Below are positions 14,653-64,000 of a DNA stretch of 64,000 nucleotides, piece by piece (the stretch's first letter is position 1; the number at the start of each line of letters is the position of its first letter). Position numbers and translations under genes: made by a program. The notes below the pieces were generated by a model. The model ran no database searches and had not been told where the DNA came from. It worked only from the letters and a program-made list of their open reading frames with translations. The stretch is from Stella humosa (lineage in GTDB: Bacteria; Pseudomonadota; Alphaproteobacteria; ATCC43930; Allostellaceae). The DNA lies in NCBI RefSeq assembly GCF_006738645.1, contig NZ_AP019700.1:3702001-3766000 (forward strand). Reading direction: 5' to 3'.

Positions 14653-14717
14653 CGCCCCTCCAGATCGAACAGATGTCGCCCCATTCTACCCATCGGTCCC
14701 GGGCGTGGCGACAGGGC

Positions 14718-15851: not shown

Positions 15852-15895
15852 GCTAGTCCGACCTCGTATCGGCCGGACCCCGGTCCGGTCCAGCC

Positions 15896-16813
15896 ATGAC
15901 GATGGCGCAGGAGAAGCTGGGGACCGACATCCTGCGGGGCATCCTGTTCATGTGTCTGGCGGCGACGGTGCTGCCGGTGATGAACGCCTTCGTCAAGTAT
16001 CTCAACGCCGAATACCATCCCTTCGCCATCATCTGGGCGCGCACCACCGGGCATTTCATCTTCGCGCTGCTGCTGTTCGCGCCAGCCGCCGGGCTGGCCA
16101 GCCTGTTCCGCACGCAGCGGCCTGGGCTCCAGGTCTGCCGCTCGCTGCTGCACCTGGCCTCGATGCTGTGCTTCTTCACCGGAATAGCCTTCGTGCCGCT
16201 GGCCGAAGCGTCGGCCATAACCTTCCTGGCGCCCTTCCTGGTCACGGCCCTGTCGGGGCCGATGCTGGGCGAGAAGGTCGGCATCCGCCGCTGGTCGGCG
16301 GTCGTGGTCGGCTTCGGCGGTGCGCTGGTGGTCACCCGGCCGGGATCGGGCGCGGTGCCGCCGGAGGCGATCCTGCTGTTCGGCAGTGCCAGCGCCTATG
16401 CGCTCTACCAGATCCTGACCAAGCGCGTGTCGGCGCTGGACCGGCCCGAGACGTCGGTCATCTACAGCGGCGTCGCCGGCACTCTCATCATGTCCATGGT
16501 CGTGCCGTTCTTCTGGATCTGGCCCAACGACTGGGTGGATGCGGTGTTGTTCCTGTCGCTCGGCATCCTGGGCGGGCTCGGCCACTATTTCGTCGCCCGC
16601 GCGTTCATGTGGGGACCGGCCTCGGTGATATCGCCCTTCAACTACGGGCAGATCGCGGTCGCCACGGTCCTGGGCTACCTCATGTTCGGCAACCTGCCCG
16701 ACATCTGGACCTGGGTCGGCGTCGCCATCATCATCTCCAGCGGCCTCTATATTGCCTACCGTGAAACGCGCCGGCGGGCCGAGCGCACCGCCCTTCGTCC
16801 GGAAGTGAAGTGA
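15896..16813 (+). CDS. DMT superfamily (EamA) transporter
   Basis: A 305-residue protein with ten predicted membrane segments and two EamA repeats (residues about 10-145 and 155-290). PLAEASAITFLAPFLVTALSG is a typical EamA stretch. It is probably an inner-membrane metabolite exporter of unknown substrate. The stop lies one base before the pepN start, so the two genes are probably coupled. Confidence 0.85.
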   Translation: MTMAQEKLGTDILRGILFMCLAATVLPVMNAFVKYLNAEYHPFAIIWARTTGHFIFALLLFAPAAGLASLFRTQRPGLQVCRSLLHLASMLCFFTGIAFVPLAEASAITFLAPFLVTALSGPMLGEKVGIRRWSAVVVGFGGALVVTRPGSGAVPPEAILLFGSASAYALYQILTKRVSALDRPETSVIYSGVAGTLIMSMVVPFFWIWPNDWVDAVLFLSLGILGGLGHYFVARAFMWGPASVISPFNYGQIAVATVLGYLMFGNLPDIWTWVGVAIIISSGLYIAYRETRRRAERTALRPEVK

Positions 16814-16814
16814 C

Positions 16815-19427
16815 ATGAGCCACCAGCCGATCCGCCGTGCCGACTACCTGCCGCCCGACTTCGGCATCGACCGGGTGGAGCTGGAGTTCGACCTGGAACC
16901 CGCCCGCACCCTGGTTCGCGCCCGCCTGGCGATCCGGCGCATCGGCGCCTCCGACGCGGCGCTGGTGCTGGACGGCGAGGACATGGAACTCCTCGGCCTC
17001 GCGCTGGACGGCAACGCCCTGGCGGCCGACCGCTACCGGCTGGAGCCGACCCGCCTCACCATCCCCGGCGTGCCCGATGCATTCGAGCTCGTCATCGACG
17101 GAGCCATCGCCCCGGCCGCCAACACCGCGCTGGAGGGGCTCTACATCTCCAGCAGCGTCTTCTGCACCCAGTGCGAGCCGGAAGGCTTCCGCCGCATCAC
17201 CTGGTTCCTCGACCGGCCGGACGTGCTGTCGGTCTTCCGCACCACCATCCGCGCCGAGCGCGCGCGCTTCCCCATCCTGCTGTCGAACGGCAACCTCGCC
17301 GCGGCCCGCGACCTGGGCGACGGACGCCACGAGGCGGTCTGGGATGATCCGTTCCCCAAGCCCAGCTATCTCTTCGCGCTGGTGGCGGGCGACCTGGCCG
17401 TGGTCGAGGACCGCTTCACCACCCGCTCGGGCCGCGATGTCGCGCTGAAGATCCTGGTCGAGCATGGCAAGGAAGGCCGCGCCGGCTACGCCATGGATTC
17501 GCTGAAGCGATCGATGCGCTGGGACGAGGAGACCTACGGGCTCGAATACGACCTCGACGTCTTCCACATCGTCGCCGTGTCGGACTTCAACATGGGGGCG
17601 ATGGAGAACAAGAGCCTCAACGTCTTCAACGACCGCTTCATCCTGGCCGACCCCGCGACCGCGACCGACCTCGACTATGCCAATGTCGAGGGCGTGGTCG
17701 CGCACGAGTATTTCCACAACTGGACCGGCAACCGCATCACCTGCCGCGACTGGTTCCAGCTCAGCCTGAAGGAAGGGCTGACCGTCTATCGCGACCAGGA
17801 GTTCACGGCCGACGAGCGCTCGCGCGCGGTCAAGCGCATCCAGGACGTGCGCGTCCTGCGCGCGCGCCAGTTCCCCGAGGATGGCGGGCCGCTGGCCCAC
17901 CCGATCCGGCCGGACAGCTACCTGGAGATCAACAACTTCTACACCGCCACCGTCTACGAGAAGGGGGCGGAGGTCATCCGCATGCTGGAGGCCCTGCTCG
18001 ACCGGGACGGCTTCCGCCGCGGCATGGACCTCTATGTCGCCCGCCATGACGGCGAGGCCGCGACCTGCGACCAGTTCGTGGCGGCCATGGCCGATGCCAA
18101 CGGCCGCGACCTCTCCCACTTCCTGCGCTGGTACGGGCAGGCCGGCACGCCGCGTTTGACTTTGGAGCAGAGCCACGACGCCGCGACCGGCACCTACGCC
18201 CTGACCGTGTCGCAGCGCACGCCCCCCACCCCCGGCCAGCCGGACAAGCTGCCGCTGCACCTGCCCGTCCACATGGGACTGATCGGCCGCGACGGGGCGG
18301 AGATCCCGTTGCGGCTCGAGGGCGAGAACGCTCCCCAGGGCACGTCGCGGGTGCTGGAACTGACCGAGGCCAGCCAGACCTGGCGCTTCGTCGGCGTCGA
18401 GGCGCCGCCTGTCCTGTCCATCAATCGCGGCTTCGCCGCCCCGGTCGTCGTCGAAAGCAGCGAGAGCGAGGATGATCTGGCCCTGCGCATGCGCGCCGAC
18501 GCCGACCCCTTCTCGCGCTGGGAGGCGGCCCAGAGCTTTGCCACCCGCCTGCTGCTGGCCGGCATCGCGGCCGCCGCCGAGGGCCGGCCGCCGCCGCCGA
18601 CCGATGCCTTCGTCGCGGCACTCGCCGCCGCGTTCGACGCGGTCGAGGGCGATCCGGCGTTCGCGGCGGAGCTTCTGGCCCTGCCGGGCGAGCTGTACCT
18701 GGCCGAGCAGGTTGCGGTGATCGACGTCGAGGCCATCCACGCCGCCCGCAAGGCCCTGCGCGCGGCCGTCGCCCAAGGCCTGGTGGACCGGCTGCGCCAT
18801 GTGCGGACCGGGCCACCCCGCCCCTTCGCACCCGATGCCGCCTCGGCCGGCCATCGGGCGCTGGCCAACATGGCGCTCGGCTATCTTTCCACCATCGACG
18901 GCCCTGCCGCCGCGATGGCCCAGTACCGCGCGGCCGACAACATGACCGACCGGTTCTCGGCGCTGGCCATCCTGTCGGAACTGGACGTACCGGAGCGGAC
19001 AGCGGCCCTGGCCGACTTCCACGACCGCCATGCCGGGGATGCGCTGGTGCTGAACAAGTGGCTGGGCTTGCAGGCGGGCTCGTCCTTGCCGGACACGCTG
19101 GCGACGGTGCGGGCGCTGCTGGATCACCCCGCCTTCTCCTACGGCAATCCCAACAAGATCTATGCGCTGGTCGGCGGCTTCGCGGGCAACGCGCTGCGTT
19201 TCCACGCCGCGGACGGGTCCGGCTACGCCTTCATGGTCGACCAGATCCTGCGGCTCGACCCGCAGAACCCGCAGGTCGCCTCGCGCCTGCTGAAGGCGTT
19301 CGGCCGCTGGCGGCGTTTCGATGCCGACCGCCAGGCCCTCATGCGCGACGCGATGGAACGGATCGCGGCTACCCCCGGCCTGTCGCCCGACTGCCGCGAG
19401 ATCGTCGGCCTGTCGCTGGCAAGCTGA
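16815..19427 (+). CDS. pepN: Aminopeptidase N (M1 zinc metallopeptidase)
   Basis: An 870-residue cytoplasmic M1 aminopeptidase that releases N-terminal residues from peptides. The exopeptidase motif GAMEN is near residue 260 (NMGAMENKSLNVF). The zinc site HEYFHNW followed 18 residues later by KEGLTV gives the HExxH-E ligands near residue 300. The C-terminal half is the helical domain found in E. coli PepN (870 residues), so the size is exact. It follows the EamA gene by one base and precedes a phosphoesterase gene. Confidence 0.96.
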   Translation: MSHQPIRRADYLPPDFGIDRVELEFDLEPARTLVRARLAIRRIGASDAALVLDGEDMELLGLALDGNALAADRYRLEPTRLTIPGVPDAFELVIDGAIAPAANTALEGLYISSSVFCTQCEPEGFRRITWFLDRPDVLSVFRTTIRAERARFPILLSNGNLAAARDLGDGRHEAVWDDPFPKPSYLFALVAGDLAVVEDRFTTRSGRDVALKILVEHGKEGRAGYAMDSLKRSMRWDEETYGLEYDLDVFHIVAVSDFNMGAMENKSLNVFNDRFILADPATATDLDYANVEGVVAHEYFHNWTGNRITCRDWFQLSLKEGLTVYRDQEFTADERSRAVKRIQDVRVLRARQFPEDGGPLAHPIRPDSYLEINNFYTATVYEKGAEVIRMLEALLDRDGFRRGMDLYVARHDGEAATCDQFVAAMADANGRDLSHFLRWYGQAGTPRLTLEQSHDAATGTYALTVSQRTPPTPGQPDKLPLHLPVHMGLIGRDGAEIPLRLEGENAPQGTSRVLELTEASQTWRFVGVEAPPVLSINRGFAAPVVVESSESEDDLALRMRADADPFSRWEAAQSFATRLLLAGIAAAAEGRPPPPTDAFVAALAAAFDAVEGDPAFAAELLALPGELYLAEQVAVIDVEAIHAARKALRAAVAQGLVDRLRHVRTGPPRPFAPDAASAGHRALANMALGYLSTIDGPAAAMAQYRAADNMTDRFSALAILSELDVPERTAALADFHDRHAGDALVLNKWLGLQAGSSLPDTLATVRALLDHPAFSYGNPNKIYALVGGFAGNALRFHAADGSGYAFMVDQILRLDPQNPQVASRLLKAFGRWRRFDADRQALMRDAMERIAATPGLSPDCREIVGLSLAS

Positions 19428-19438
19428 GGGACGGGCCG

Positions 19439-20239
19439 GTGCTGATCGCCCAGATATCGGACCCCCATGTCCGGCCGGAAGGGGTTCTCTACAAGGGCGT
19501 GGCGCCGTCGAACCGCATGCTGGAGGCGGCCATTGCCCGCCTGCATGGGCTCGACCCGCGACCGGACCTGGTGCTGCTGACGGGCGACCTGACCGAGGAA
19601 GGGCTGCCGGCGGAATACGCGGCGGCGGCCGCCATCCTGGCCCGGCTGGAGATCCCGCTGCTGCTGCAACCGGGCAACCATGACGAGCGCGAGGCGTTCC
19701 GCGCCACCTTCGCCGCCGCCCACCCCTACCTGCCGCCCGCGGGGCCGCTGCATTACGCGATCGGCGACCGCGGCCCGGTGCGGGTGGTCGCGCTCGACGT
19801 CACCCTGCCCGGCCTGCATCATGGGGATGTCGACGACGCGGCCGCGGACTGGCTGGCCGACACGCTGGCGGCCGATCCCGGCCGGCCGACGATCGTGATG
19901 ATGCACCAGCCGCCGGTCGAGGTCGGCGTCCCCTATCTCGACCTCTACCGCTGCCATGGGGCCGACCGGATGGCCGCCGTGGTCGCCCGTCATCCCAATG
20001 TCGAGCGCGTCGTCTGCGGCCATGTCCACCGCGTGTTCCAGTTGCGCTGGGCCGGCACGCTGCTGGTGACGGCGCCCAGCACGGTGACGCAGATCGCACT
20101 CGCCCTGCGCCCGGACGCGGAGCCCGCCTCCTACCTCGATCCGCCGGCCTTCCTGCTGCACCACTGGCGGCCGGAAGCGGGCCTCATCACCCACTACTGC
20201 CCGATCGACGCAGCGCCAGGGCCGTTCCCGTTCGCCTGA
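19439..20239 (+). CDS. Metallophosphoesterase, CpdA-like (3',5'-cyclic nucleotide phosphodiesterase family)
   Basis: A 266-residue calcineurin-like phosphoesterase. The five metal-binding blocks are visible: ISDPHV, LTGDLT, GNHDER, MMHQPPV and CGHVHR. This is the class III cyclic-nucleotide phosphodiesterase (CpdA) layout, though such proteins can also act on other phosphodiesters. GTG at 19439 with GAGGGA upstream is the start. It converges on the CRP-family regulator with only 8 bases between; a cyclase lies just beyond, so cAMP breakdown is a reasonable guess. Confidence 0.82.
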   Translation: MLIAQISDPHVRPEGVLYKGVAPSNRMLEAAIARLHGLDPRPDLVLLTGDLTEEGLPAEYAAAAAILARLEIPLLLQPGNHDEREAFRATFAAAHPYLPPAGPLHYAIGDRGPVRVVALDVTLPGLHHGDVDDAAADWLADTLAADPGRPTIVMMHQPPVEVGVPYLDLYRCHGADRMAAVVARHPNVERVVCGHVHRVFQLRWAGTLLVTAPSTVTQIALALRPDAEPASYLDPPAFLLHHWRPEAGLITHYCPIDAAPGPFPFA

Positions 20240-41750: not shown

Positions 41751-42456
<706 letters not shown>

Positions 42457-53051: not shown

Positions 53052-54014
53052 ATGAGCCAGCGCCTACCCGACGGTCCGCGCAAGGCGCTGCTGATCGTCA
53101 ACGGCCGGGCGCGCAACGGCGGTGCCGCGCTCGACGGCCCCAAGGCGATCCTGGCCGAGGCCGGCATCACGCTCGTCGAATGCCCTTGCGAAGAAGGGAC
53201 CAAGGCCGCCGACGCCATCCGGGCGCGCGCAAGCGAAGGTTTCACCGAGGTCATCGTCGGCGGCGGCGACGGCACGATGAACGCGGCCGCCCCCGGCCTG
53301 GTGGCGACCGGGCTGCCGCTCGGCATCCTGCCGCTGGGGACCGCCAACGACCTTGCCCGCTCGCTCGAGATCCCGACCGACCCCGTGGAGGCCGCCCGCG
53401 TCATCGCCGCCGGGCGGGCGCGGCCGATCGACCTTGGCGACGTCAACGGCCATCTCTATTTCAACGTCGCCAGCATCGGCTTCAGCGCGGTGCTGGCACG
53501 CGAACTGTCGTCGGAATCTAAGAAGCGCTGGGGCGTGCTGGGCTACGCCATCACCGCGTTCCGCCTGCTGCGCCGGATGCGCCCCTTCAGCGTCATCATC
53601 GGCCATGACGGCGGGCGCGAGCAGACGAAGACCATCCAGGTGGCGGTCGGCAACGGCCGCAACTATGGCGGTGGCATGACGGTCGATGCCGATGCCCAGC
53701 CCGACGACGGCATGCTCGACGTCTATAGCCTGGAGATCGACCATTGGTGGCGGCTGGTGGCCCTGGCCCCATCGATGCGCCGCGGCACCCATGGCGCCTG
53801 GAGCGACGTGCGTACGCTCCGCACCAAGGCCTGCACGCTGACGACGCGGCGCCCGATGCGGGTCAATGCCGATGGCGAGCTGGTGACCCAGACCCCGGCC
53901 CGCTTCCAGGTGCATCCGGGCGCGGTCCGCATATTCGCGCCGGAGACGGTCGACAAGGAGGCGGCCGATCAACAGCCAGCCGATCAATCGGCGGGCGGTG
54001 CCAGCGCGGCATAG
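53052..54014 (+). CDS. Diacylglycerol kinase-family lipid kinase (YegS-like)
   Basis: A 320-residue soluble lipid kinase of the DAGK_cat family. The ATP-binding GGGDGTMNAAA is near residue 75 and LPLGTANDLARSL near residue 100; GNGRNYGGGM is conserved too. AGGAG lies 6 bases before the ATG. It phosphorylates diacylglycerol or another lipid alcohol. It is divergent from the PAP2 phosphatase, a pairing of opposite activities. Its last 31 bases overlap the convergent FkbM gene. Confidence 0.92.
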   Translation: MSQRLPDGPRKALLIVNGRARNGGAALDGPKAILAEAGITLVECPCEEGTKAADAIRARASEGFTEVIVGGGDGTMNAAAPGLVATGLPLGILPLGTANDLARSLEIPTDPVEAARVIAAGRARPIDLGDVNGHLYFNVASIGFSAVLARELSSESKKRWGVLGYAITAFRLLRRMRPFSVIIGHDGGREQTKTIQVAVGNGRNYGGGMTVDADAQPDDGMLDVYSLEIDHWWRLVALAPSMRRGTHGAWSDVRTLRTKACTLTTRRPMRVNADGELVTQTPARFQVHPGAVRIFAPETVDKEAADQQPADQSAGGASAA

Positions 54015-54751
54015 ACATCGCCCGAGTTGGCCGACTGCGGCAGGCCGTCGATCCAGCGGGCCATGGCCGGCCCGTCGCGCCAGCCGCCCTCGATCAGGCG
54101 CTGGCTTTCCCCCAGGGCGGCGCAGAAGCGATAGGGGCCAAGCGCCGTCAGCCGCTCGATGGCGACATGGGCGACATCGCGCTGGATGGTGGTGAATTCG
54201 AACGACAGGGCCGCGACCGGGCGCGTCAGGCCGGCCAGCGCCTCGGCCTCGAACCCTTCCACGTCGATCTTCACGAAGGCCGGCTGGCCATGCCGCTCGA
54301 TCAGCAGGTCGAGCGTCGTCAGGGCGACCTCGACCGAATGGTCCCAGGTCTGGCCCTGCCAGCCCTGGGCGCCGTCGGTCGCACGGATGAACTGGTCGGA
54401 CGCGGTCGAGATCGTCGGGTTGGCGCTGTTGACGCGCAGGATGACGCGGCCGGCCGCCCGGCCGACGGCGACGGGCTCCAGCGCCACCGCCGGGTCGCGA
54501 CCGTAGAGCAGGCGCAGCACCCGGTGCAGGGGCGGCTGCGGCTCCACGGCGACGACGCGGCAGCCCAGGCGCCGGAAGGACGCGATACGGTCGCCGACAT
54601 GGCTGCCGACATCGAACACCAGGTCGCCCGATTTCACGAAGCGGGCATGCAGGCGATCCATCGCCCGCGAACGCTCGCGCCCGCGATAGTAGATGGCGAG
54701 CGAGCGGCCGATGCCGCGTGCCTGGCGCAACAATTGACGGAGGCCCGTCAT
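53984..54751 (-). CDS. FkbM-family methyltransferase
   Basis: A 255-residue SAM-dependent methyltransferase. LVFDVGSHVGDRIASFRRLGCRVVAVEPQP is the FkbM motif I region (residues about 45-75) and FVKIDVEGFEAEAL is the characteristic acidic block near residue 170. FkbM enzymes O-methylate sugars or polyketides. It is the last gene of the seven-gene operon, with its ATG overlapping the mdoH stop. Confidence 0.88.
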   Translation of the reverse strand: MTGLRQLLRQARGIGRSLAIYYRGRERSRAMDRLHARFVKSGDLVFDVGSHVGDRIASFRRLGCRVVAVEPQPPLHRVLRLLYGRDPAVALEPVAVGRAAGRVILRVNSANPTISTASDQFIRATDGAQGWQGQTWDHSVEVALTTLDLLIERHGQPAFVKIDVEGFEAEALAGLTRPVAALSFEFTTIQRDVAHVAIERLTALGPYRFCAALGESQRLIEGGWRDGPAMARWIDGLPQSANSGDVYAALAPPAD

Positions 54752-56505
54752 TCCCGGCGCTCCGCAGCCAGGGTCAGCGCCGGCAGGCCGGCCGCCGCCA
54801 GGGCCGGCGGCGGCGTCGTCTCCTCCGGCAGGCGGCCGAGGCCGAAGCGGGTGGCGGCACGGCCGAGCCAGGGCAGCGAGGTCGCCACCGCGAAAGGCAC
54901 GGCCAGCAACATGCCGGCGGCCCCGAACTGGCCGTAGGTCAGGGCCTCCCACGACGACGCCAGCAGGACCACGGTCGCCACGACCCCCATCAATGTCTGG
55001 AACCACAGGGCGCGCAGGGCCAAGAGCCAGGGCACGGCATGGTCGTCGCGCACCTGGCCCGTCCAGGTGCTGCGTCGGCGCAGCGGCAGGCCCAGCATGA
55101 ATACGGTGTGGGCCAGGGTGGTGATGGGAAAGAGCAGCAGCGAGAACAGCAGTTCCGCCGCCAGGCCGAGTGTGAAGCGCAGGGCGCCGCCGAAGCTGCG
55201 GCGCTCCGCCGGTCGGGCCAGCACGTCGATGGCGGTCGCGATCTTGGGCGAGAAGACCAGGAAGATCATCGTCGCCAGGACGACCGGCCCCAGGGTCGGA
55301 TCGAAGATCGGCCCCTGCCCGGCCCCGGCGGCGCTGCGCCAGACGATGAGCGCGAACAGGGCCGCCCAGGCCGGCGCGCCGAAGAACATCAGCATGGCCA
55401 GCAGCAGGTGGAAGCGGCTGCCGGGCAGCAGCCCCCGCATGCCGACCAGCCGGACATACTGCATGTTGCCCAGGCACCAACGCAGGTCGCGGCGCACGAA
55501 CTCCACCAGCGTCGGCGGGTTGGCCTCCCAGCTACCGCCTTCTTCCGGCAGGACGCGGACCTCGAAGCCGGCCCGCCGCATCAGGGCAGCCTCGATCTGG
55601 TCATGGCTCAGCACGTCGCCGCCGAAGGGCGGGCTGCCGGAGAGGCGCGGGATGTGGCAGTGACGGGTGAACGGCTCGACCCGGATGATCGCATTGTGCC
55701 CCCAATAGGGTCCGCAATCGGCCTGCCAGGCCGACGAGCCCAGCGTGTAGGAGCGCATGCCGAGCCGCATGCCGAGCTGGAACAGGCGGGCGAACAGGCT
55801 GGTGCTGGGCATGCCGGCCACCAGCGTCTGGACGATGCCGAACGTCGGCTCGGCCTCCATGATCCGCACCAGCCGCAGCACGGCATCGGGCGCCATGATG
55901 CTGTCGGCGTCGAGCGTCACCATGAACTGGTAGTCGCCGCCCCAGCGCAGGCAGAAGTCGCGGATGTTGCCGGCCTTGAAGCCCTCGTTGGACGTGCGGC
56001 GGCGATAGGTGGACGGGCATCGCGCGGCCAGGTGCCGGGCCTCCGCCTCCTCGGCCGCGGCGATGTCCGGCCGGTCGGTGTCGCTCAGCACGAAGGCATG
56101 GAAGCGCTCGCCCCAGCCGGCCCCGGCCAGCCCCTCCATCAGCCGGCCGACGGCGGCAAAGGCCCGCGCCGGGTCCTCGTTGCGCACGCAGATGAGGATG
56201 GCGGTGCGGCCGGCGATCGGCGCGTCGGGCCGCGCCAGCCGGGCGAAGGGGGCCACGGCCGCGACCGCGTCCGGCGTCGCCATGCGCAACACCAGGAAGA
56301 TGACGGCATTCCAGAAACCGATGACCGACCAGGGCACGGTGAAGGCGAAGAGCAGCAGGATCGCCAGGTCGGACGCGACGAAGCCGCCCGGCATGAGGGC
56401 CGCCGCCATCAGCGCCACCATGGCCAGCGTGCTGGCGGCGCAGACCAGCGCATAGACCCGCCGCCTGCCGGTGATCGCCGCCGCCGAAACCGCCCCTGCC
56501 GCCAT
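54748..56505 (-). CDS. mdoH: MdoH/OpgH-like glucan glucosyltransferase
   Basis: A 585-residue inner-membrane GT2 enzyme, shorter than E. coli MdoH (847). Two N-terminal helices precede ILICVRNEDPARAF; the GT core has TLDADS (DxD) near residue 200, GGDVLSHDQIEAALMRRAGF, and RRDLRWCLGNMQY (the QxxRW-like motif) near residue 330, then about five helices. It uses UDP-glucose to build osmoregulated periplasmic glucans. The usual partner mdoG is absent. It sits in an operon with a pterin-like gene set, just ahead of an FkbM gene, which is unusual. Confidence 0.9.
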   Translation of the reverse strand: MAAGAVSAAAITGRRRVYALVCAASTLAMVALMAAALMPGGFVASDLAILLLFAFTVPWSVIGFWNAVIFLVLRMATPDAVAAVAPFARLARPDAPIAGRTAILICVRNEDPARAFAAVGRLMEGLAGAGWGERFHAFVLSDTDRPDIAAAEEAEARHLAARCPSTYRRRTSNEGFKAGNIRDFCLRWGGDYQFMVTLDADSIMAPDAVLRLVRIMEAEPTFGIVQTLVAGMPSTSLFARLFQLGMRLGMRSYTLGSSAWQADCGPYWGHNAIIRVEPFTRHCHIPRLSGSPPFGGDVLSHDQIEAALMRRAGFEVRVLPEEGGSWEANPPTLVEFVRRDLRWCLGNMQYVRLVGMRGLLPGSRFHLLLAMLMFFGAPAWAALFALIVWRSAAGAGQGPIFDPTLGPVVLATMIFLVFSPKIATAIDVLARPAERRSFGGALRFTLGLAAELLFSLLLFPITTLAHTVFMLGLPLRRRSTWTGQVRDDHAVPWLLALRALWFQTLMGVVATVVLLASSWEALTYGQFGAAGMLLAVPFAVATSLPWLGRAATRFGLGRLPEETTPPPALAAAGLPALTLAAERRE

Positions 56506-56516
56506 CGTCCGGTCCT

Positions 56517-57323
56517 TCAGCTTGCGTGCCCGTCTTGCCGCGGGATGATCAGCAGGTCGCGGTGCCCGACCATGAGGGACAGGGCACCCTGCTGCAGTTG
56601 CCGCCGGCGGCGATCAGCCCAGGCGGCGATCGCATCGTGGTCGGCCGGCGACTGCTCCAGGGCGGCGGCCGCCGCTCCTTCCAGCATCGCCGCCAGCATG
56701 GCCGTCGCGTCCGGCGGCACCCGCCAGTCGCTGGCGGACGACAGCACCTCGGCACCGCGGTGACGAAAGGCCGACGCGACCCTCGCTGGCGCCGCAGGCC
56801 CCAGCGCCAATCCCCGGCCCAGACCTTTGGGCCGGCGCTGGTGGGCGCGGAACAGGTGATCGACCAGCGCGTCACCCGGATCGTGCGGCGACCAGTGCCC
56901 GCGCCCGTCGACGATCAACGGCGCGTAGAGCGGCAGGCGCCGACGGGTCAGGGCGGCAGCCGCCTGCTCGACCCAGCCAGCGGTCGCGAGATCGAGCAGA
57001 GCGAAGGCCGTGACCGCGTCCACACCGCGATCCAGCACCGGCGTCCAGCCGGCCGCCAGGTCGCGGCACTCGCCACGCGCACCGGGGACGCCGGCCACGG
57101 CATGGCGCAACAGCGCCGCATCGCCCTCGACGAAGGTCCAGCGCACCCCATCGCCCAGCAAGGGGCGCAGGGCGCGGCGCGAGGCGCCGGTGCCGGCGCC
57201 GAGATCGACGATGGCGGCACGGGCCGGCAACAGCCGCGCGAACGCGCGCGCCAGACGAGCGGATCGCGCGGCATCGTCGAACGGCGCGCGCAACGCCAGC
57301 CAGTCGGAGGAAAAACCGCTCAT
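56517..57323 (-). CDS. Class I SAM-dependent methyltransferase (unknown substrate)
   Basis: A 268-residue methyltransferase. Motif I is AIVDLGAGTGASRRAL near residue 40, followed by WTFVEGDAALLRHA (acidic Glu). Towards the C-terminus VDHLFRAHQRRPKGLGRGLALGP and SDWRVPPDATAML are conserved-looking. It is flanked by the GT4 gene (4-base overlap) and mdoH (11 bases). Substrate unknown. Confidence 0.83.
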   Translation of the reverse strand: MSGFSSDWLALRAPFDDAARSARLARAFARLLPARAAIVDLGAGTGASRRALRPLLGDGVRWTFVEGDAALLRHAVAGVPGARGECRDLAAGWTPVLDRGVDAVTAFALLDLATAGWVEQAAAALTRRRLPLYAPLIVDGRGHWSPHDPGDALVDHLFRAHQRRPKGLGRGLALGPAAPARVASAFRHRGAEVLSSASDWRVPPDATAMLAAMLEGAAAAALEQSPADHDAIAAWADRRRRQLQQGALSLMVGHRDLLIIPRQDGHAS

Positions 57324-58366
57324 GCCGCGAACCGCAGGACGGCCCGGCCGAACGCACGCGCGGCGTCGTCCCAGCCCGGCAGGGCCGCACCCGCCGCCCC
57401 GGCCGCCGCGGTCAGCCGCGCGCGCAAGGCCTGGTCGCCGATCGCCCGGCGCAGCGCATCGGCCATCGCCGCGGCGTCGCCCGGCGGCACCAGCAGCCCG
57501 GCATCGGCCGGCACGGTATCCGGCACCGCCCCGCCGCCGACCGCGACGATGGGCAAGCCCGCGCGCAGGGCCTCGCTGAGCGCCATGCCATAGCCCTCAT
57601 AGACGGCGGAATGAACGAAAAGGTCGGCGGCGCGATAGGCCTCGGCCACCGCCGCGTCGCTGGCCTCGCCCGCCAGCGTCACCCGGCCGGCCAGCCCGCT
57701 GGCCGCCAACTGTTCGCGCAGGCCCGCGGTCAGGGCCGGGTCGCGATCGGTGGCGCCGATGCAGGTCAGCTCCCACGGCAGGTCGGCGAGCCCGGCCAGG
57801 GCGGCGAACAGAAGGGCATGTCCCTTGCGCGGCACCAGGGCCGCCACCGACAGCAGGCGCACCGGGCCGCCATCGGCCCGCGGCCGGCGCTGCGGCATCG
57901 GGTCGACGCCGGGCGGCACCGCGACGACGCGATCCGGGGCGACGCCATACTCGGCCTGGAGGGTGCGCGCGGTGAACGGGCTGGTGACGACGATGCCGGC
58001 CACGCGCGCCAGGTCGGCCCGCTCGGCCGCGCGCAGGGCGGCGGCGACGTCGCCGGCAAGCCCGGTCTCCTCGGCCAGCGGATGATGGATGAGCGCAATC
58101 ACCGGCGGGCCATCGGTGGCCGCATCGGCGCCCAGGCCAAAGGCCGGCAGCGCCAAGCCGTCGATGACCAGCGGGCCCGCCGCACGCGCGCGCACCGCCG
58201 CAGCCGCCGCGCGTGCCGCCGAATCGACCATCGGATAGCTGCCGGCCATCTCGTGGACCGTCACTCGCCAGCCCTGCCCACGCAGGCCCTCGACGATGCG
58301 GCGGTCATAGATGGTGCCGCCGGTCCGCCGGTCGAGCCGGCCCGGCAACGCCAGGTCCAGCCGCAT
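57320..58366 (-). CDS. Glycosyltransferase family 4
   Basis: A 348-residue GT-B retaining glycosyltransferase. The N-terminal half includes GRLDRRTGGTIYDRRIVEGL and ALIHHPLAEETGL; the C-terminal donor domain includes VPPGVDP, LVPRKGH and EGYGMALSEALRAGLP with the EX7E motif near residue 258. No membrane helix. It adds a sugar to an unknown acceptor. Its start overlaps the preceding stop by one base (TGATG) in the seven-gene operon. Confidence 0.88.
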   Translation of the reverse strand: MRLDLALPGRLDRRTGGTIYDRRIVEGLRGQGWRVTVHEMAGSYPMVDSAARAAAAAVRARAAGPLVIDGLALPAFGLGADAATDGPPVIALIHHPLAEETGLAGDVAAALRAAERADLARVAGIVVTSPFTARTLQAEYGVAPDRVVAVPPGVDPMPQRRPRADGGPVRLLSVAALVPRKGHALLFAALAGLADLPWELTCIGATDRDPALTAGLREQLAASGLAGRVTLAGEASDAAVAEAYRAADLFVHSAVYEGYGMALSEALRAGLPIVAVGGGAVPDTVPADAGLLVPPGDAAAMADALRRAIGDQALRARLTAAAGAAGAALPGWDDAARAFGRAVLRFAA

Positions 58367-58779
58367 CAGCGCGGCGCCGCGACCGGTCCCTCGAAACTGG
58401 CCCAGGCGCGCGGCGATTCGCGCAGGATCACCTTGATCGACTCCAGCCGTCCGGCGGTATCGGGCCCGAGGTCGCCGGCTGCCGCGCGTGCGGCCAGTCG
58501 GCGATGGATCTCGGCCGACAAGAACTCCGTCGTGGTGTTGATGCCGGCCAGGTCAGGCTCGGCGTCGAGGTTGCGGTAGTCGAAGGCGGCCAGCACCTCG
58601 CGCAGCGCCGTCATCGCCCGGCCGATATCACAGACGACGCCGTTGGCATCGAGCTCGGCACGGCGGAACTCCGCCTCCACGGCGTAGGTGGCGCCGTGCA
58701 GCGCCTGGGCCGGGCCGAACAGTTCGCCCTTGAAGCTGTGGGCGATCATGAAGTGGTCGCAGACGGTGACGGCATACAT
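58366..58779 (-). CDS. 6-pyruvoyl-tetrahydropterin synthase/QueD-like protein with degenerate active site
   Basis: A 137-residue T-fold protein of the PTPS/QueD family: FMIAHSF, LHGATYAVEAEF, VCDIGRAMTALREVLAAFDYRNLD and the Glu in ILRES are recognisable. Compared with E. coli QueD, the HGH zinc pair reads HGA, the catalytic Cys before it is missing, and LDHHYLND has become FDYRNLDA. It is thus unlikely to do standard QueD chemistry; it may have a new reaction or bind a pterin. It is between the dehydrogenase and the GT4 gene in a seven-gene operon. Confidence 0.8.
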   Translation of the reverse strand: MYAVTVCDHFMIAHSFKGELFGPAQALHGATYAVEAEFRRAELDANGVVCDIGRAMTALREVLAAFDYRNLDAEPDLAGINTTTEFLSAEIHRRLAARAAAGDLGPDTAGRLESIKVILRESPRAWASFEGPVAAPR

Positions 58780-58827
58780 GGGTCGGGCTCGCCTTCGGTG
58801 CTGCCAGGGGTGGGGGGCCGGAGCGGA

Positions 58828-59820
58828 TCAGCTATAGCGGACGACGTGGCAAAGCGTTCCGTCGGGCGGCCCGGCCAGGCGCCGCATCGTCTGCGGCAGG
58901 TCGGCGAAGGCGCTCTCGCCCGTCAGCAGATGGTCATAGGCCGGGTCGCCCAGCAGGTCGAGCGCCAGCGCCAGGCGCCGGCGATAGCTCCAGCGGCTGC
59001 GCTGGGCGGGTGCCACGCGGCCGACCTGGGAGGCGCGCAGCGTCAGGCGCCGGGCATGGAAGGCGCCACCCAGCGGCAGAGCCGCCGGTGCCGACCCGAA
59101 CCAGCTCAGCACCGTCACCACCGCCTCGTCGCCCGCCAGGTCCAGCGCGGTCACCAGGCCGGCCGGCTTGCCGGAGACCTCGAACACCCCGTCGCAGTCC
59201 CGCGGGGCGGCGTCGGGCAGGGCGAAGGCCACGCCCAGGGCAGCCGCCACCGTCGCCTTGCCGGGATCGACGTCGACCAGCGTCACCTGGGCACCGGGCA
59301 CCGCCGATGCCAGGCGGGCCACCGCCAACCCGACCACGCCGCCGCCGACGACCGCGATCCGCTGGCCGGGGAGGACGGGCGAATCCCACAACGCGTTGAT
59401 CGCCGTCTCGAGGTTGGCCGCCAGCACGGCGCGCCTTGGCGGCAGAGCGGCCGGCAATGGCAGCAGGGCGTCGGCCGGCACGACGAAGCGGTCCTGGTGC
59501 GGATGCAGGCAGAAGACGTTGGTGCCCAGGAGCCCGGGCGGGCCGGAGTCGACACGGCCGACGGCGGCATAGCCGTACTTCACCGCGCCCGAGAACGCGC
59601 CCTCCTGGAAGGGGCAGCGCATCCGCTCCCATTCGGACTCCGGCACGCCACCGGCGAAGACCAGCGTCTCGGTCCCGCGGGAAATGCCGGACCACAGGGT
59701 GGCGACCACCGCCTCGTCCGGTTCCGGCGACGGCACGGCGGCCGGGCGGATCTCGCCCACGCCCGCCGCCACCGTCCAGAAGGCGTGGGCGGCGGGTGGC
59801 GGCTCAGAGCCGGCGGACAT
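58828..59820 (-). CDS. Medium-chain dehydrogenase/reductase without catalytic zinc ligands
   Basis: A 330-residue MDR protein. The N-terminal segment reads TLWSGISRGTETL where classical alcohol dehydrogenases have the zinc Cys (xCGTD); this SGISRGTE form is seen in BchC-like enzymes. The Rossmann region is IAVVGGGVVGLAVARLAS near residue 160 with the acceptor Asp in VTLVDVDPG. So it is probably an NAD(P)-dependent oxidoreductase on a small molecule. Start at ATG 59820; an ATG at 59841 would extend it. It overlaps the RibD-type gene by 17 bases. Confidence 0.83.
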   Translation of the reverse strand: MSAGSEPPPAAHAFWTVAAGVGEIRPAAVPSPEPDEAVVATLWSGISRGTETLVFAGGVPESEWERMRCPFQEGAFSGAVKYGYAAVGRVDSGPPGLLGTNVFCLHPHQDRFVVPADALLPLPAALPPRRAVLAANLETAINALWDSPVLPGQRIAVVGGGVVGLAVARLASAVPGAQVTLVDVDPGKATVAAALGVAFALPDAAPRDCDGVFEVSGKPAGLVTALDLAGDEAVVTVLSWFGSAPAALPLGGAFHARRLTLRASQVGRVAPAQRSRWSYRRRLALALDLLGDPAYDHLLTGESAFADLPQTMRRLAGPPDGTLCHVVRYS

Positions 59821-60646
59821 CGCAGTCGAACAGCACATCATCTCCCATACGGAAGATCCGCGTGGGTGGACGCAGCGCCTCGGAAAGATTTGCCAGCGGC
59901 GGCAACGCCAGCCCCGGCCGGCCGGAACCGAGGATCATCGGCGCGACGGCCACCTGCAGCCGATCGAGGCAGCCCTCGGCCAGGAAGCGCGAGACGGTGA
60001 CGCCGCCGCCCTCGACGAAGATGCGGCGACAGCCGAGGCCGGCCAGCACGTCGATGACCGCGGCATAGTCGATCGTGTCGCCGCGCCGCGGCACGCCCAG
60101 GATGCGGGCATCGCCGATGGTGGCGCGGTCGACCCGGTCATGGGCGCAGAGCACGACCGTCTCCACCTCGCCGTCGCGGAACAGGCGGTAGCGATCGTCT
60201 AGCCGGCGCTCGGTATCGATGACGATGCGGCGCGGGTGGCGACCAGGCACCCGTCGCACGGTCAGGCGCGGGTCGTCATGGCGCACGGTGCCGGCCCCGA
60301 CCACGACCGCACAGGCCAGCGCCCGCATGCGGTGGAGGTGGTCGAGGTTGGCCTGGCAGGTGATGTAGGTCGATTCGCCCGCATCGGTCGCGATCCGCCC
60401 GTCGAGGCTCTGCCCGAGATGCGCGAAGACCAGAGGTCCCGCCTGGCCGCTGGCCAGGAACGGCCCATAGAGGTCGAGCAGTTCGGCGGCGGCAGGATCG
60501 GCCGGGATCGGGCCACGATGGCGCCCGTCGCCGTCGAAAAGGCCGGCACCCGGCCCGGCCACGCACGCAAGCATCGCCGTCCAGGCATCGTCGCCCGCGA
60601 TCGGCTCGGCACAATCGGGGGCCGCGTCAGGGCCGGTGGGCGGCAA
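59804..60646 (-). CDS. RibD C-terminal (DHFR-like) reductase-domain protein
   Basis: About 280 residues. From residue 85 on it is a RibD_C reductase: LVFAHLGQSLDGRIAT, MRALACAVVVGAGTVRHDDPRLTVR and IFVEGGGVTVSRFL match the 5-amino-6-(5-phosphoribosylamino)uracil reductase fold. The RibD deaminase domain is absent. It probably reduces a pyrimidine- or pterin-like sugar adduct. No ATG is near the start; the TTG at 60646 is a guess. It is the first gene of the seven-gene operon. Confidence 0.8.
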   Translation of the reverse strand: MPPTGPDAAPDCAEPIAGDDAWTAMLACVAGPGAGLFDGDGRHRGPIPADPAAAELLDLYGPFLASGQAGPLVFAHLGQSLDGRIATDAGESTYITCQANLDHLHRMRALACAVVVGAGTVRHDDPRLTVRRVPGRHPRRIVIDTERRLDDRYRLFRDGEVETVVLCAHDRVDRATIGDARILGVPRRGDTIDYAAVIDVLAGLGCRRIFVEGGGVTVSRFLAEGCLDRLQVAVAPMILGSGRPGLALPPLANLSEALRPPTRIFRMGDDVLFDCDVRRL

Positions 60647-60759: not shown

Positions 60760-61584
60760 CTACACCGGGGCCAGGCGGGTGCCGACGATGCGGGTGCGCA
60801 GGATCGACGACAACCAGTCGATCGCGGCCACCGTCGCCAGGATCATCAGGATCAGGAAGGCAACCGCCTGCCATTCCAGCGTGCGGATCTCCTCGGCCAG
60901 GTGCAGGCCGATGCCGCCCGCGCCGACGATGCCGATGATCGTCGCCGAGCGGGTGTTGGACTCGATGTAGTACAGAACCTGGCTCAGCATCACCGGCAAC
61001 ACCTGGGGCAGGATCCCGAAGCGGATGCGGTGCAGCCGGCCGCCGCCGCTGGCGACCACGCCCTCGCCCGCCCGCCGGTCGGTCGCCTCGATCGCCTCGG
61101 AGAACATCTTGCCGAAGGCGCCGATGTCCGCCGACATGATCGCCAGCACGCCCGCGAACGGCCCGAGCCCGACGACGTTGATCCAGATGAGGGCCCAGAT
61201 CAGCGTGTCGACGCCGCGCACGGTGTCGAGGCTGCGGCGGGCCAGGAAATGCACCAGCCGCTGGGCGACGACGTTGCGCGCGGCCAGGAAGCCGAGCGGC
61301 AGGGCGATGACGGCGGCCAGACCGGTGCCCAGGAAGGCGATGGCGACCGTCTGCGCCAGGGCATGGGCATAGAGCTGCAGCTTGGCGACCGTGCCGAAAT
61401 CGGGCGGCACCATCAGCACGACGAACGTGCCGAGCCGCCCCAGCCCCGACCACAGACGCTGGGGCGTCAGTCCGACCCACCACAGGCCGAACAGCAGAAG
61501 TGCCACCGGGGCCGCGAACGCCAGCGCCACGCCCGCGCGATGCACGGCGCCTGGCATGGTGGATGGGGGAGTGGCTACGGTCAT
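60760..61584 (-). CDS. phnE: Phosphonate-type ABC transporter permease PhnE (second copy)
   Basis: A 274-residue permease with about six membrane segments. The EAA-like loop is RIRFGILPQVLPVMLSQVLYYIESNTRSATIIGIVGAGGIG near residues 190-230, typical of PhnE. It works with the preceding PhnE as a permease pair. Its ATG overlaps the previous gene by four bases. The end of the phn operon lies 113 bases before the RibD-type gene. Confidence 0.92.
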   Translation of the reverse strand: MTVATPPSTMPGAVHRAGVALAFAAPVALLLFGLWWVGLTPQRLWSGLGRLGTFVVLMVPPDFGTVAKLQLYAHALAQTVAIAFLGTGLAAVIALPLGFLAARNVVAQRLVHFLARRSLDTVRGVDTLIWALIWINVVGLGPFAGVLAIMSADIGAFGKMFSEAIEATDRRAGEGVVASGGGRLHRIRFGILPQVLPVMLSQVLYYIESNTRSATIIGIVGAGGIGLHLAEEIRTLEWQAVAFLILMILATVAAIDWLSSILRTRIVGTRLAPV

Positions 61585-62474
61585 GCCTGTCCCCCGTGCA
61601 GCCGGCCGCGCAGCCGTTCGGTCGCCAGGTCGATCAGCATGACGGTGCCGACGATCAGCAGCAGGATGGCCGACACGTCGGCATAGTAGAACTTGCGGAT
61701 GGCCTCGATCAGGTCCTGGCCGATGCCGCCGGCGCCGACGAAGCCCATCACCGAGGCGCCGCGCACATTGATCTCGAAACGCAGCAGGGTGTAGCTGGCG
61801 AAGTTCGGAAGGACCTGCGGCACGACGGCAAAGCGCATGGTCTCGAGCCAGGTGCCGCCGGCCGCCGTGGTCCCTTCGACCGGCCCCATGTCGGCGTTCT
61901 CGACCACTTCGGCAAAGAGCTTGCCCAGCGCGCCGGTGGTGTGGATGGCGATGGCCAGCACACCCGGCAGCGGCCCCAGGCCGAAGGCGATGACGAAGAT
62001 GAGCGCGAAAACGATCTCGGGAACCGTGCGGCACAGTTCCAGGTAGCGCTTGGCGAGGAAGCGTGCGACCGGCCAGCGGCCGACATTGGCGGCGGCGAAG
62101 AAGCACAGCGTGAACCCGCCGATGAAACCGAGCGCCGTGCCGACATAGGCGACCAGCAGCGTTTCGGCCAGGAGGCGCAGCCAGCGCGCGATGCCCCAGT
62201 ACCATTCGCCGATGTCCAGCAGCACCGAGCGGCCGGCAAGCGCGCCGTCGTCGAAGACGAACAGGCGCGCGAGATAGGTCGGCAGCCGGTCGAAGTTGGC
62301 GACAAGCCGCCCGAGATCGACCTCGGCGACCAGGGCCGCCGTCAGCGTGGCCAGGGCCAGGATGATGCCGCCCAGAACAGTCTGGCGGCGGCGGGCGGCA
62401 ATGGTCCGTTCATAGGCACGGACGAGAGGCACCAGCGCCTCGTCCGGCAGCCGCTGGGGACTGGTGAGGGTCAT
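61581..62474 (-). CDS. phnE: Phosphonate-type ABC transporter permease PhnE (first copy)
   Basis: A 297-residue permease. It has a cytoplasmic N-terminus (VRAYERTIAARRR), about six membrane segments, and the loop RFAVVPQVLPNFASYTLLRFEINVRGASVMGFVGAGGIG. ATG 62474 is the start. It pairs with the second PhnE. A hairpin at 62490-62513 separates it from phnD. Two-permease phn operons (phnCDEE) are common in alphaproteobacteria. Confidence 0.92.
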   Translation of the reverse strand: MTLTSPQRLPDEALVPLVRAYERTIAARRRQTVLGGIILALATLTAALVAEVDLGRLVANFDRLPTYLARLFVFDDGALAGRSVLLDIGEWYWGIARWLRLLAETLLVAYVGTALGFIGGFTLCFFAAANVGRWPVARFLAKRYLELCRTVPEIVFALIFVIAFGLGPLPGVLAIAIHTTGALGKLFAEVVENADMGPVEGTTAAGGTWLETMRFAVVPQVLPNFASYTLLRFEINVRGASVMGFVGAGGIGQDLIEAIRKFYYADVSAILLLIVGTVMLIDLATERLRGRLHGGQA

Positions 62475-62489
62475 GGCATGGGAGCCCAC

Positions 62490-62513
62490 CGGGCCGCGCA
62501 TCGGCGCGGCCCG
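62490..62513 (-). terminator. Hairpin after phnD, before phnE
   Basis: A perfect 10-base-pair stem (CGGGCCGCGC / GCGCGGCCCG) with a 4-base ATCG loop lies 16 bases after phnD and 15 before phnE. No T run. As at urtA, it may limit expression of the downstream permeases or stabilise the binding-protein mRNA. Confidence 0.6.
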
Positions 62514-62529: not shown

Positions 62530-63447
62530 TCAGCTCGCGCGGCGCTTGCGCATGTCGTCGACGAAACGGTTCAGCTCGACGATCGGCTCGTAGTCCTTGT
62601 GCGTGGTCGGCTTCCAGAGCTGCTGCTGACCGTCGGTCAGCTTGCGGAATGCCTCCGGGTCCTTCTTTTCGACCGCGAAGAAGGCATCGCGGATCGCGGT
62701 CTTCAGCTCGGCAGGCAGGTCCGAGAGATAGGCGAACGGCGAGTTCACGATCTGGTCGGACTTGTAGATGATGCGGAAGTCCGAATACTTGGCCATCCCC
62801 TTGCGCTCCATGCGCTTCAGGTTGGACTCCTTCTCGTCGTTCCACCAGTTGGCGGCGACGTCGACGGTGCCCTGCTGCAAGGCGATGATCGCGTTCTCGT
62901 GGCTGCCGGTATAGACGAGGCGGCCGAAATACTTCTCGGTATCGATCTTCATCTTGTCGAGCGCGAAGCGCGGGACGTTGTTGCCCGAGGTGGAGTTCGG
63001 GTCGACGAGGCCGATGTTCTTGCCCTTCAGGTCCTCGATCGAACGGTAGGGGCTGTCGGCCCGCACATAGAAGACCGAGTGGTAGCCGGCGGTACCGTCG
63101 GCGTTCACTTCCATGGCGAACGGCTCGGTCTTCACGCCGGTCATGGCGGCGCGCGCGTAGGAGGCCGGGCCGTACTTGGCGATATGGACGTTGCCGGCCT
63201 TCTGGCCCTCGATCACGGCGGCATAGTCGTTGGCGACGCGCAGCGTCACCTTGGTGCCCAGTTCGCGTGACAGGTACTCGACGAACTTCTCGAAGCGCCC
63301 GGTCATGCCGGACGCATTCTCGTCCGGGATCGCGGCCAGCACGAGTTCAGGGTACTTGGCCTTCCAGGCCTGGGCCTGGGCGGCGGTGCCGGCGAAGGAA
63401 ATGGCGGCGGCGGCGGCAAGGCCGGTCAGCAGGGTGCGCCTCAGCAT
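62530..63447 (-). CDS. phnD: Phosphate/phosphonate ABC transporter substrate-binding protein PhnD
   Basis: A 305-residue periplasmic binding protein of the PhnD family. The signal peptide is MLRRTLLTGLAAAAAISFAGTAAQA. Typical features are LVLAAIPDENASGMTGRFEKFVEYLSRELG, KYGPASYARA, LVDPNSTSGNNVPRFAL and YTGSHENAIIALQQGTVDVAANWWND. The acidic and Ser/Thr residues would bind an alkyl phosphonate. AGGAG precedes the ATG at 63447. Confidence 0.94.
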   Translation of the reverse strand: MLRRTLLTGLAAAAAISFAGTAAQAQAWKAKYPELVLAAIPDENASGMTGRFEKFVEYLSRELGTKVTLRVANDYAAVIEGQKAGNVHIAKYGPASYARAAMTGVKTEPFAMEVNADGTAGYHSVFYVRADSPYRSIEDLKGKNIGLVDPNSTSGNNVPRFALDKMKIDTEKYFGRLVYTGSHENAIIALQQGTVDVAANWWNDEKESNLKRMERKGMAKYSDFRIIYKSDQIVNSPFAYLSDLPAELKTAIRDAFFAVEKKDPEAFRKLTDGQQQLWKPTTHKDYEPIVELNRFVDDMRKRRAS

Positions 63448-63472: not shown

Positions 63473-64000
63473 TCAGACGGTTGCGGGAATGGCGTGGCCC
63501 AGGCCGGGGCCGGGCGCGCGGGCCTGGGGGGCGTCCAGCACCTCGCCTGCCTCCAAACCGTAGAGGGTGCGGGCGACATCGTCGGTCAGGGCGGCCGGCA
63601 CGTCGTCGAACACCACCCGGCCAGCCGCCATGCCGATCAGCCGGTCGCAATAGGCGTGCGCCAGGTCGAGCGAGTGCAGGTTCACCATCACGGTGATGCC
63701 GTAGCGCCGGTTGATGCCGTGGATGGCGTCCATGACGGTGCGGGTGTTGCGCGGGTCGAGCGAGGCGACGGGCTCGTCGGCCAGCAGGATGCGCGGCTCC
63801 TGCACCAGGGCGCGGGCGATGGCGACGCGCTGCTGCTGGCCGCCCGACAGGCTGTCGGCGCGCTGGGCGGCGATGGCGCCGATGTCGAACTGCTCGAGCG
63901 CCGAGAAGGCCAGCGCGCGGTCCTGGGACGGCCACAGGCGCAGCAGGCTGCGATGCAGCGGCACGTGGTTGAGGCGCCCCATCAGCACGTTGGTCAGCAC
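63473..64000 (-). CDS. phnC: Phosphonate ABC transporter ATP-binding protein PhnC (3' part, runs off right edge)
   Basis: The C-terminal 175 residues of an ABC ATPase; the start lies past base 64000. [35 protein letters not shown] holds the signature and Walker B, with the switch His in NLHSLDLA. The [20 protein letters not shown] opening (seen as [13 protein letters not shown]) is specific to PhnC. The ATPase drives PhnD/PhnE uptake. Confidence 0.93.

Follow-up and report, generated by a model that had tools for sequence, protein, structure and literature searches.

The seven-gene operon of Stella humosa

The window analysed here is the whole 64,000-nucleotide stretch of the Stella humosa genome (contig NZ_AP019700.1) at G000:C1:3702001-3766000, and positions prefixed C1 below are Stella genome coordinates. 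Towards the end of the window lie seven closely packed genes on the minus strand, for which a first-pass annotation had proposed a single operon. In the order of transcription they are as follows, the first five being referred to as the core:

59804-60646, minus strand: RibD_C-only reductase without a deaminase domain (Pfam RibD_C, E 9.7e-40)
58828-59820, minus strand: dehydrogenase of the medium-chain dehydrogenase/reductase (MDR) superfamily without the usual zinc cysteines (Pfam E 1.9e-05, below cut-off)
58366-58779, minus strand: PTPS-like, a protein with the fold of 6-pyruvoyltetrahydropterin synthase (PTPS), of the SCO6650 (3D7J) family (Pfam PTPS, E 3.7e-23)
57320-58366, minus strand: GT4-type glycosyltransferase with an invariant E-x7-E motif (PF00534, Glycos_transf_1, E 1.5e-26)
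56517-57323, minus strand: methyltransferase (MT), class-I SAM type, of a family for which no model exceeds its cut-off (weak class-I match, E 0.0045)
54748-56505, minus strand: MdoH/OpgH-like membrane glycosyltransferase, a cluster-specific paralog (NCBIfam MdoH models; in a clade of its own)
53984-54751, minus strand: FkbM-family methyltransferase (PF05050, E 3.8e-13; TIGR01444, E 8e-22)

All seven open reading frames (ORFs) were found where expected, and their coordinates bear out the tight spacing first noted: neighbouring genes overlap by 17, 1, 4 and 4 bases or stand 48 and 11 bases apart. The gene names given earlier also agree with Pfam and NCBIfam, the matches for MT and MDR being weak. 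An ATG at 59841 is a possible alternative start for MDR, and its best NCBIfam models (BchC and HpnZ) are both far below cut-off. The MdoH-like protein matches NF003963 at E 1.6e-204, yet below the cut-off of that model, and exceeds the cut-offs of the sister models NF003958 and NF003962. Scans for promoters gave no sites and those for terminators gave three, which is not above shuffled sequence.

Conservation of the gene set in other genomes

A protein search of public genomes with the PTPS-like query supplied 80 loci, the best 80 of 100 confirmed relatives, and as the best were kept the sample is skewed to Acetobacteraceae. The closest relatives are in S. vacuolata (93%), Stella sp. ATCC 35155 (90%) and an alphaproteobacterial metagenome-assembled genome (MAG, 90%). 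Matches were found in 34 of 192 related genomes, 29 at E<=2e-35 and five no better than 1e-6, and 398 sampled Pseudomonadota genomes gave 27 strong (E<=1e-45) and three weak (near 1e-16) matches. Plasmid records added 20 matches, 17 of them fetched, from Streptomyces, Rhizobium, Methylosinus, Thiodictyon, Arthrobacter, Microbacterium and others. Neighbourhoods were read in 142 loci, all of which hold a PTPS-like gene by construction, and 102 of these (full-flank loci) extend at least 6.5 kb to each side. Neighbouring genes were identified by their resemblance to a selected set of queries, and 'absent' therefore means undetected. Actinomycetota were sampled on plasmids only, and other phyla are represented by two MAGs (L055 and L080), resting on their binning.

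Within 7 kb of the PTPS-like gene, the 102 full-flank loci carry genes for MDR (98), GT4 (97), RibD_C (89) and MT (86). Accessory genes are those for a CDP-alcohol phosphatidyltransferase (36), GTP cyclohydrolase II (GCHII; 33), FkbM (21) and LPG_synthase_TM (21), and, more rarely, MdoH (16) and cytochrome b561-like (15), sulfatase-like (12) and creatininase-family (11) proteins. When PTPS-like proteins at least 99.5% alike were counted once, 100 loci remained, and MDR is directly followed by PTPS-like in 94 of these, with GT4 next in 88 and MT after that in 79. A 70% cut left 38 loci, for which the corresponding counts are 37, 34 and 30. The complete Stella order (RibD_C, MDR, PTPS-like, GT4, MT) occurs in 37 of the 100 and 10 of the 38, and in many loci lacking this order RibD_C is found on the opposite strand, downstream of the core.

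The same association is seen when whole genomes are searched. MDR, used as its own query (E<=1e-20), turned up in 29 of the 192 genomes. These are precisely the genomes that match PTPS-like strongly, and the other 163 have no MDR at that threshold. RibD_C (E<=1e-30) was found in 28 of the 192, comprising 25 of the 29 PTPS-like-bearing genomes and three others (G031, G108 and G168). It was missed in G025, G029, G105 and G137, three of which are at most 80% complete, and in G070 it is present though about 62 kb away from the core. RibD_C-MDR-PTPS-like-GT4-MT is a conserved cluster in Pseudomonadota, with a less complete view of it from plasmids of Actinomycetota and from two MAGs, one Acidobacteria and one Kofleriaceae. 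A local or chance grouping was rejected because the first five genes recur across many genomes. Their earlier interpretation as one pathway, which predicted such recurrence, is strongly supported by the shared gene order and by the identical genome distribution of MDR and PTPS-like, and the conserved gene set very probably works as one pathway.

Cluster make-up varies around the core. In Streptomyces fungicidicus the genes are those for CDP-alcohol phosphatidyltransferase, MDR, PTPS-like, GT4, MT, creatininase and GCHII, with RibD_C undetected, while in Peteryoungia and Rhizobium sp. SL42 genes for sulfatase, LPG_synthase_TM, FkbM, CDP-alcohol phosphatidyltransferase and GCHII precede MDR, PTPS-like, GT4, MT and RibD_C, which are followed by cytochrome b. 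MdoH adjoins MDR in Methylosinus and Neorhizobium. Halovibrio has CDP-alcohol phosphatidyltransferase, MDR, PTPS-like, a fused GT4-MT, RibD_C, GCHII, creatininase and FkbM; the fusion is a single plus-strand ORF of 641 residues (L070, 10395-12318), which fits GT4 and MT acting in sequence. Two Rhodobacterales plasmids (L138 and L140) have no GT4 between PTPS-like and MT, and in Palleronia a GT4 and an inositol-monophosphatase-like gene are located about 4 kb upstream. Kinase-type and aldolase genes come after the core in many loci, mostly Acetobacteraceae-like (gene clusters in 53 and 35 loci). In L066, for example, the stretch 12093-14209 encodes a protein of the four-carbon sugar kinase type, with SBD_N and NBD_C domains, and an aldolase of class II. 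These genes are taken as family synteny. Ahead of the core, many Acetobacteraceae loci carry genes that by eye look flagellar.

The last two genes of the Stella operon, MdoH and FkbM, had been suspected of being a separate glucan module hitched to the others, but this idea is not supported: other families too have them next to the core, and the MdoHs of the cluster group in a separate clade. In a tree of 22 MdoH sequences (midpoint rooted, with few outgroup rows) the 16 core-linked sequences fall together, split 100/100 from six others that include the mdoG-linked copy of Stella and Halomonas-type copies. MdoH lies within 5.5 kb of PTPS-like in 16 of the 102 full-flank loci, in one case (L184) as the mdoG-linked type. 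The single mdoG match in Stella (C1:1667787) adjoins the second MdoH, and the operon copy is without an opgG partner. Among the 21 loci with FkbM, six have MdoH, 14 have CDP-alcohol phosphatidyltransferase and one has neither. MdoH and FkbM are recurrent parts of the cluster and therefore not hitchhikers, the cluster MdoHs standing apart from the mdoG-linked form. An arrangement of two modules, in which the five-gene core would be one pathway and MdoH-FkbM an unrelated glucan unit lying after it, is improbable. It would suit the normal role of MdoH as a glucan enzyme, and seven of the eight fetched Stella-order loci outside Stella's family (L112-L119) lack MdoH at the core, only L119 having it there; besides the proximity and clade just described, it is opposed by the separate MdoG-MdoH pair in Stella and by the 15 of 21 FkbM loci that have no MdoH or have CDP-alcohol phosphatidyltransferase instead.

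MdoH and CDP-alcohol phosphatidyltransferase rarely occur together. Among 59 accessory-bearing loci, 15 have only the former, 35 only the latter, one (L184) both and eight neither, giving a Fisher value of 1.6e-7 on the assumption that loci are independent, which they are not. LPG_synthase_TM accompanies CDP-alcohol phosphatidyltransferase in 21 loci and MdoH in none, and for the sulfatase the figures are 11 and 0. This swap is suggestive of two ways of carrying out one last membrane step. A profile search of the Protein Data Bank (PDB) with the CDP-alcohol phosphatidyltransferase returned one weak match, and the sulfatase-annotated cluster protein had no Pfam match.

Protein families and the proposed pathway

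A phmmer search of the PDB with the PTPS-like protein (E<=0.1) gave a single solved match, 3D7J (E 1.1e-39, residues 1-131), which is SCO6650 of S. coelicolor. The AlphaFold model (pLDDT 90.4) has 3D7J as its top Foldseek match (54% identity), followed by PTPS and QueD, supporting a T-fold. An alignment of 141 family members with Stella's own HGH-bearing PTPS-family protein (C1:185201) shows that the first two zinc histidines of the H...HGH set are kept in all 141, while in place of the third 140 members carry Ala and one carries Cys, so that HGH occurs in none. At the positions of the catalytic Cys and His of PTPS/QueD, Cys is replaced by Ala throughout, and His by Tyr (124), Phe (9), Met (5) or Leu (3). 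The TTTE motif and the C-terminal Glu, at the ring-binding positions of the canonical enzymes, are kept in at least 95% of members. The sequence of 3d7j itself reads HGAT at the zinc motif. From these residues the Stella protein is best classed in the SCO6650 (3D7J) family, the losses being shared, and outside the canonical PTPS/QueD enzymes (COG0720), as zinc and catalytic residues are lost and the ring-binding Glu is kept. SCO6650 reportedly binds no zinc, has no PTPS activity and possesses a pocket suited to a pterin-like ligand. Its structure was released in 2008, and the PDB copy used still lists it as an uncharacterized protein. Subfamilies of COG0720 are treated in PMC5041015.

The nearest PDB structures to the RibD_C protein are the archaeal-type pyrimidine reductases 2azn (E 5.1e-23) and 6p8c (E 7.4e-23), with Rv2671 a further relative at E 6.6e-08, and TIGR01508 scores 112.6 bits, below its cut-off of 186.45. 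RibD_C is the sole domain in 280 aa, which sets the protein apart from bifunctional RibD deaminase-reductases, and it is classified as a stand-alone protein related to archaeal-type pyrimidine reductases (RED) and predicted to be a reductase. Zinc-dependent MDR alcohol dehydrogenases have an N-terminal catalytic zinc Cys and a four-Cys structural site. In 20 aligned MDR proteins the zinc-Cys place is occupied by an invariant S47-R48-G49-x-E51, and no Cys is invariant or nearly so, placing MDR outside that group as judged by its zinc cysteines. E257 and E265 of GT4 (E-x7-E) are invariant in 20 aligned proteins, as in retaining GT4 enzymes. PDB profile searches with MDR, GT4 and MT found generic relatives only.

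The earlier observation that no riboflavin genes accompany the operon holds for Stella, but not in general, given the 33 of 102 loci with GCHII near the core. The cluster GCHIIs retain the zinc cysteines, and the cluster copy is not the sole one, as all 22 tested genomes hold at least two; 21 of these were chosen for an in-cluster GCHII, and only the further copy is informative. Among 24 genomes in which PTPS-like has no strong match, 13 likewise carry at least two copies. Stella has an unlinked, cluster-like GCHII at C1:5609704-5610798 (L211, 5705-6850), 42% identical to that of Halovibrio, and a second at C1:2580345; the cluster-like copy may serve the operon pathway. GCHII and creatininase occur together within 7 kb of the core in eight full-flank loci. 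PDB profile searches matched the creatininase-family proteins to creatinine amidohydrolases, and the MftE and creatininase models of NCBIfam outscore the ArfB model, which gives E 3e-09 (37 bits, cut-off 180) for the Streptomyces protein and no match for that of Halovibrio.

The explanation we favour, and hold tentatively, is that the gene set is dedicated to a single pathway, which starts from GTP, leads to a methylated glycoside of pyrimidine- or pterin-like type and has its final step at the membrane. That the genes occur jointly is observed directly, while the product, its chemistry and its location are predicted from protein families. GCHII, encoded in the cluster in many genomes and elsewhere in Stella, would open GTP, and a creatininase-family hydrolase would remove the formyl group where needed. 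The deaminase-less RibD_C protein would then turn the ribosylaminopyrimidine into the ribityl compound by reduction, the PTPS-fold protein might hold the 2-amino-4-oxo ring, and MDR could oxidise or reduce the side chain, after which GT4 would add a sugar and MT a methyl group. Finishing at the envelope would be carried out in Stella by the MdoH-like protein and FkbM, and elsewhere by CDP-alcohol phosphatidyltransferase, often with a sulfatase-like or LPG_synthase_TM protein.

Several observations weigh against this explanation. Near the core, RibD_C was undetected in 13 of the 102 full-flank loci, MT in 16 and GT4 in five, and in four (L074, L137, L143 and L202) PTPS-like is without any core partner. 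The MDR tree, in which many branches are weak, needs at least six changes between MdoH and CDP-alcohol phosphatidyltransferase but has four supported independent pairs, and the swap is not significant once kinship is allowed for. The Stella cluster has no GCHII, and since GCHII of the same score class (>=198 bits) is found in 12 of 24 control genomes, GCHII alone is no marker of the pathway; its link to the pathway rests on its neighbourhood in other genomes. Creatininase is found in only 11 of the full-flank loci. SCO6655, encoded near SCO6650, is reportedly a GCHII that halts at the formylated pyrimidine, with Met at the position of E. coli Tyr105. A general assignment of cluster GCHIIs to this formyl-stopping type was rejected, because 33 of 35 (with L008 and L112 near-duplicates) have Tyr at this position and two, both from Streptomyces, have Met.

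On the Streptomyces plasmids L137, L143 and L202, the SCO6650-type gene (at 9001) lies near genes for cupin, metallo-beta-lactamase-fold, sigma-factor and BTAD regulator proteins, and the protein may serve another purpose there.

A tetrahydropterin branch is a somewhat unlikely alternative, in which GTP cyclohydrolase I would supply a substrate of the dihydroneopterin type and GT4 and MT would yield a glycoside resembling tetrahydrobiopterin (BH4), like those of cyanobacteria or Chlorobium. RibD_C would act as a dihydropterin reductase and MDR would replace sepiapterin reductase. The PTPS-fold protein does keep the pterin-type glutamates, and mycobacterial Rv2671, a PDB relative of RibD_C, is reported to be a dihydropterin reductase. 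There are precedents for tetrahydropterins that carry sugars and for pteridine glycosyltransferases (PMC5683033). On the other hand, RibD_C is far closer to the archaeal-type reductases than to Rv2671, PTPS-like is without the PTPS catalytic residues, and the cluster partner is GCHII, sometimes with creatininase (GTP cyclohydrolase I was not scanned for).

Less likely still is a pathway to an envelope glycolipid or glycan, either in the membrane or in the periplasm, in which PTPS-like and RibD_C would act on a cofactor or sugar-like substrate and not on a pterin-like ring. MdoH-like, CDP-alcohol phosphatidyltransferase, LPG_synthase_TM, FkbM and the sulfatase-annotated protein all indicate the membrane, but RibD_C and GCHII are hard to fit without a pyrimidine, and it is the membrane enzymes that vary while the MDR-PTPS pair is invariant. 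The RibD_C, GCHII and PTPS folds could also be read as a diverged riboflavin, queuosine or folate route, which is highly improbable: GT4 and MT are not known to have a place in any of these, and an FMN riboswitch precedes a gene for lumazine synthase in Stella. A route to riboflavin or queuosine was rejected because Stella has the HGH-type PTPS-family gene and two GCHIIs elsewhere.

The favoured pathway to a ring glycoside can be extended, speculatively and with a rather low likelihood, to a new class of envelope-bound ring compounds. These would be ribityl-pterin or ribityl-pyrimidine glycosides, exported by an MdoH-like enzyme in some bacteria and tied to phospholipid by CDP-alcohol phosphatidyltransferase in others, and redox-active or light-absorbing at the membrane. 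Genes for cytochrome b561-like proteins are found no more than 7 kb from the core in 15 of the 102 loci.

Flanking genes and relation to known systems

The gene group need not begin at RibD_C. A phnC-phnD-phnE-phnE set, on which the first-pass annotation was silent, lies directly upstream on the same strand:

60760-61584, minus strand: PhnE-type ABC permease (phnE2), Stella-lineage context, membership uncertain (TIGR01097, E 4.1e-77)
61581-62501, minus strand: second PhnE-type ABC permease (PhnE1), context (by eye and tblastn similarity to the first PhnE)
62530-63447, minus strand: PhnD-type substrate-binding protein, context (TIGR03431, E 2.6e-103)
63473-64000, minus strand: PhnC-type ATPase extending beyond the window end, context (TIGR02315, E 1.1e-57 for the in-window part)

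A spacer of 113 bases separates phnE2 from RibD_C. The remainder of phnC was read in locus L002, where the set reaches 13376 on the minus strand. All four genes stand beside the core in three Stella genomes (L002-L004), but as a general partner of the cluster phnCDE was rejected, phnC being within 7 kb of the core in four of the 102 full-flank loci and phnD in three, the latter all Stella. Beyond the set, L002 carries a bacteriophytochrome gene (PHY, GAF, PAS_2 and kinase domains) and a hybrid histidine kinase gene (14345-19749, minus strand), with cupredoxin-like and cytochrome P460 genes between these and the operon. In Neorhizobium (L198) a PAS-rich kinase pair likewise follows the core. 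About 12 kb from the operon, on the minus strand at 41751-42456, an FMN riboswitch (RF00050, 91.6 bits) precedes the lumazine synthase gene (DMRL_synthase, E 2.7e-37). Lumazine synthase had no match in the fetched cluster loci that were searched, and it was rejected as a cluster gene.

Literature searches, which covered few subscription papers, gave no description of the cluster among the matches listed, and it may already have been published. Parts of it are known: 3D7J, the GCHII and creatininase families, and pteridine glycosyltransferases. The cluster gives the orphan SCO6650 fixed partners and a likely starting compound, and candidate organisms for its study include Methylosinus trichosporium OB3b and Streptomyces. 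With strong matches in 27 of 398 Pseudomonadota genomes, current maps may lack an entire pathway and, probably, its metabolite. Bacteria have no identified system for pterin efflux, according to a review of 2026 (PMC13259868), and a cluster in which membrane transferases accompany pterin-like chemistry is a candidate for the search.

The closest known relative is SCO6650, to which the Stella PTPS-like protein is homologous over residues 1-131. Two of the five fetched Streptomyces plasmid loci (L136 and L203) carry MDR, PTPS-like, GT4, MT, CDP-alcohol phosphatidyltransferase, creatininase and GCHII together, and their GCHIIs have Met at the Tyr105 position, the change reported for SCO6655. Compared with these, the Stella cluster is without GCHII, creatininase and CDP-alcohol phosphatidyltransferase, and has phnCDE upstream and MdoH-FkbM downstream. 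This comparison rests on Streptomyces plasmid loci.

The pterin glycosides of cyanobacteria and Chlorobium (cyanopterin and BH4 glycosides), compared here by description, likewise involve a PTPS-fold gene, reductases and a glycosyltransferase, and cyanopterin carries a methylated sugar. Their biosynthesis begins with GTP cyclohydrolase I and depends on a functional PTPS; the Stella protein, unlike the latter, is without zinc and catalytic residues. The pathway genes of toxoflavin-type azapteridine clusters include those for GCHII, a methyltransferase and an enzyme resembling RibD, and these clusters are not known to hold PTPS-like, MDR or GT4. The Stella operon also differs in missing the RibD deaminase domain. 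The synthesis of osmoregulated periplasmic glucans by OpgGH (MdoGH) has the MdoH family of membrane glycosyltransferases in common with the cluster, but the core-linked MdoH of Stella falls in a separate clade and its mdoG lies elsewhere, beside the other MdoH. Lastly, the hydrolases found near the core together with GCHII in eight of 102 loci belong to the creatininase family, as do the formamidases BrbF and ArfB (for BrbF, PMC9478397), and a deformylase role is predicted for the cluster proteins.

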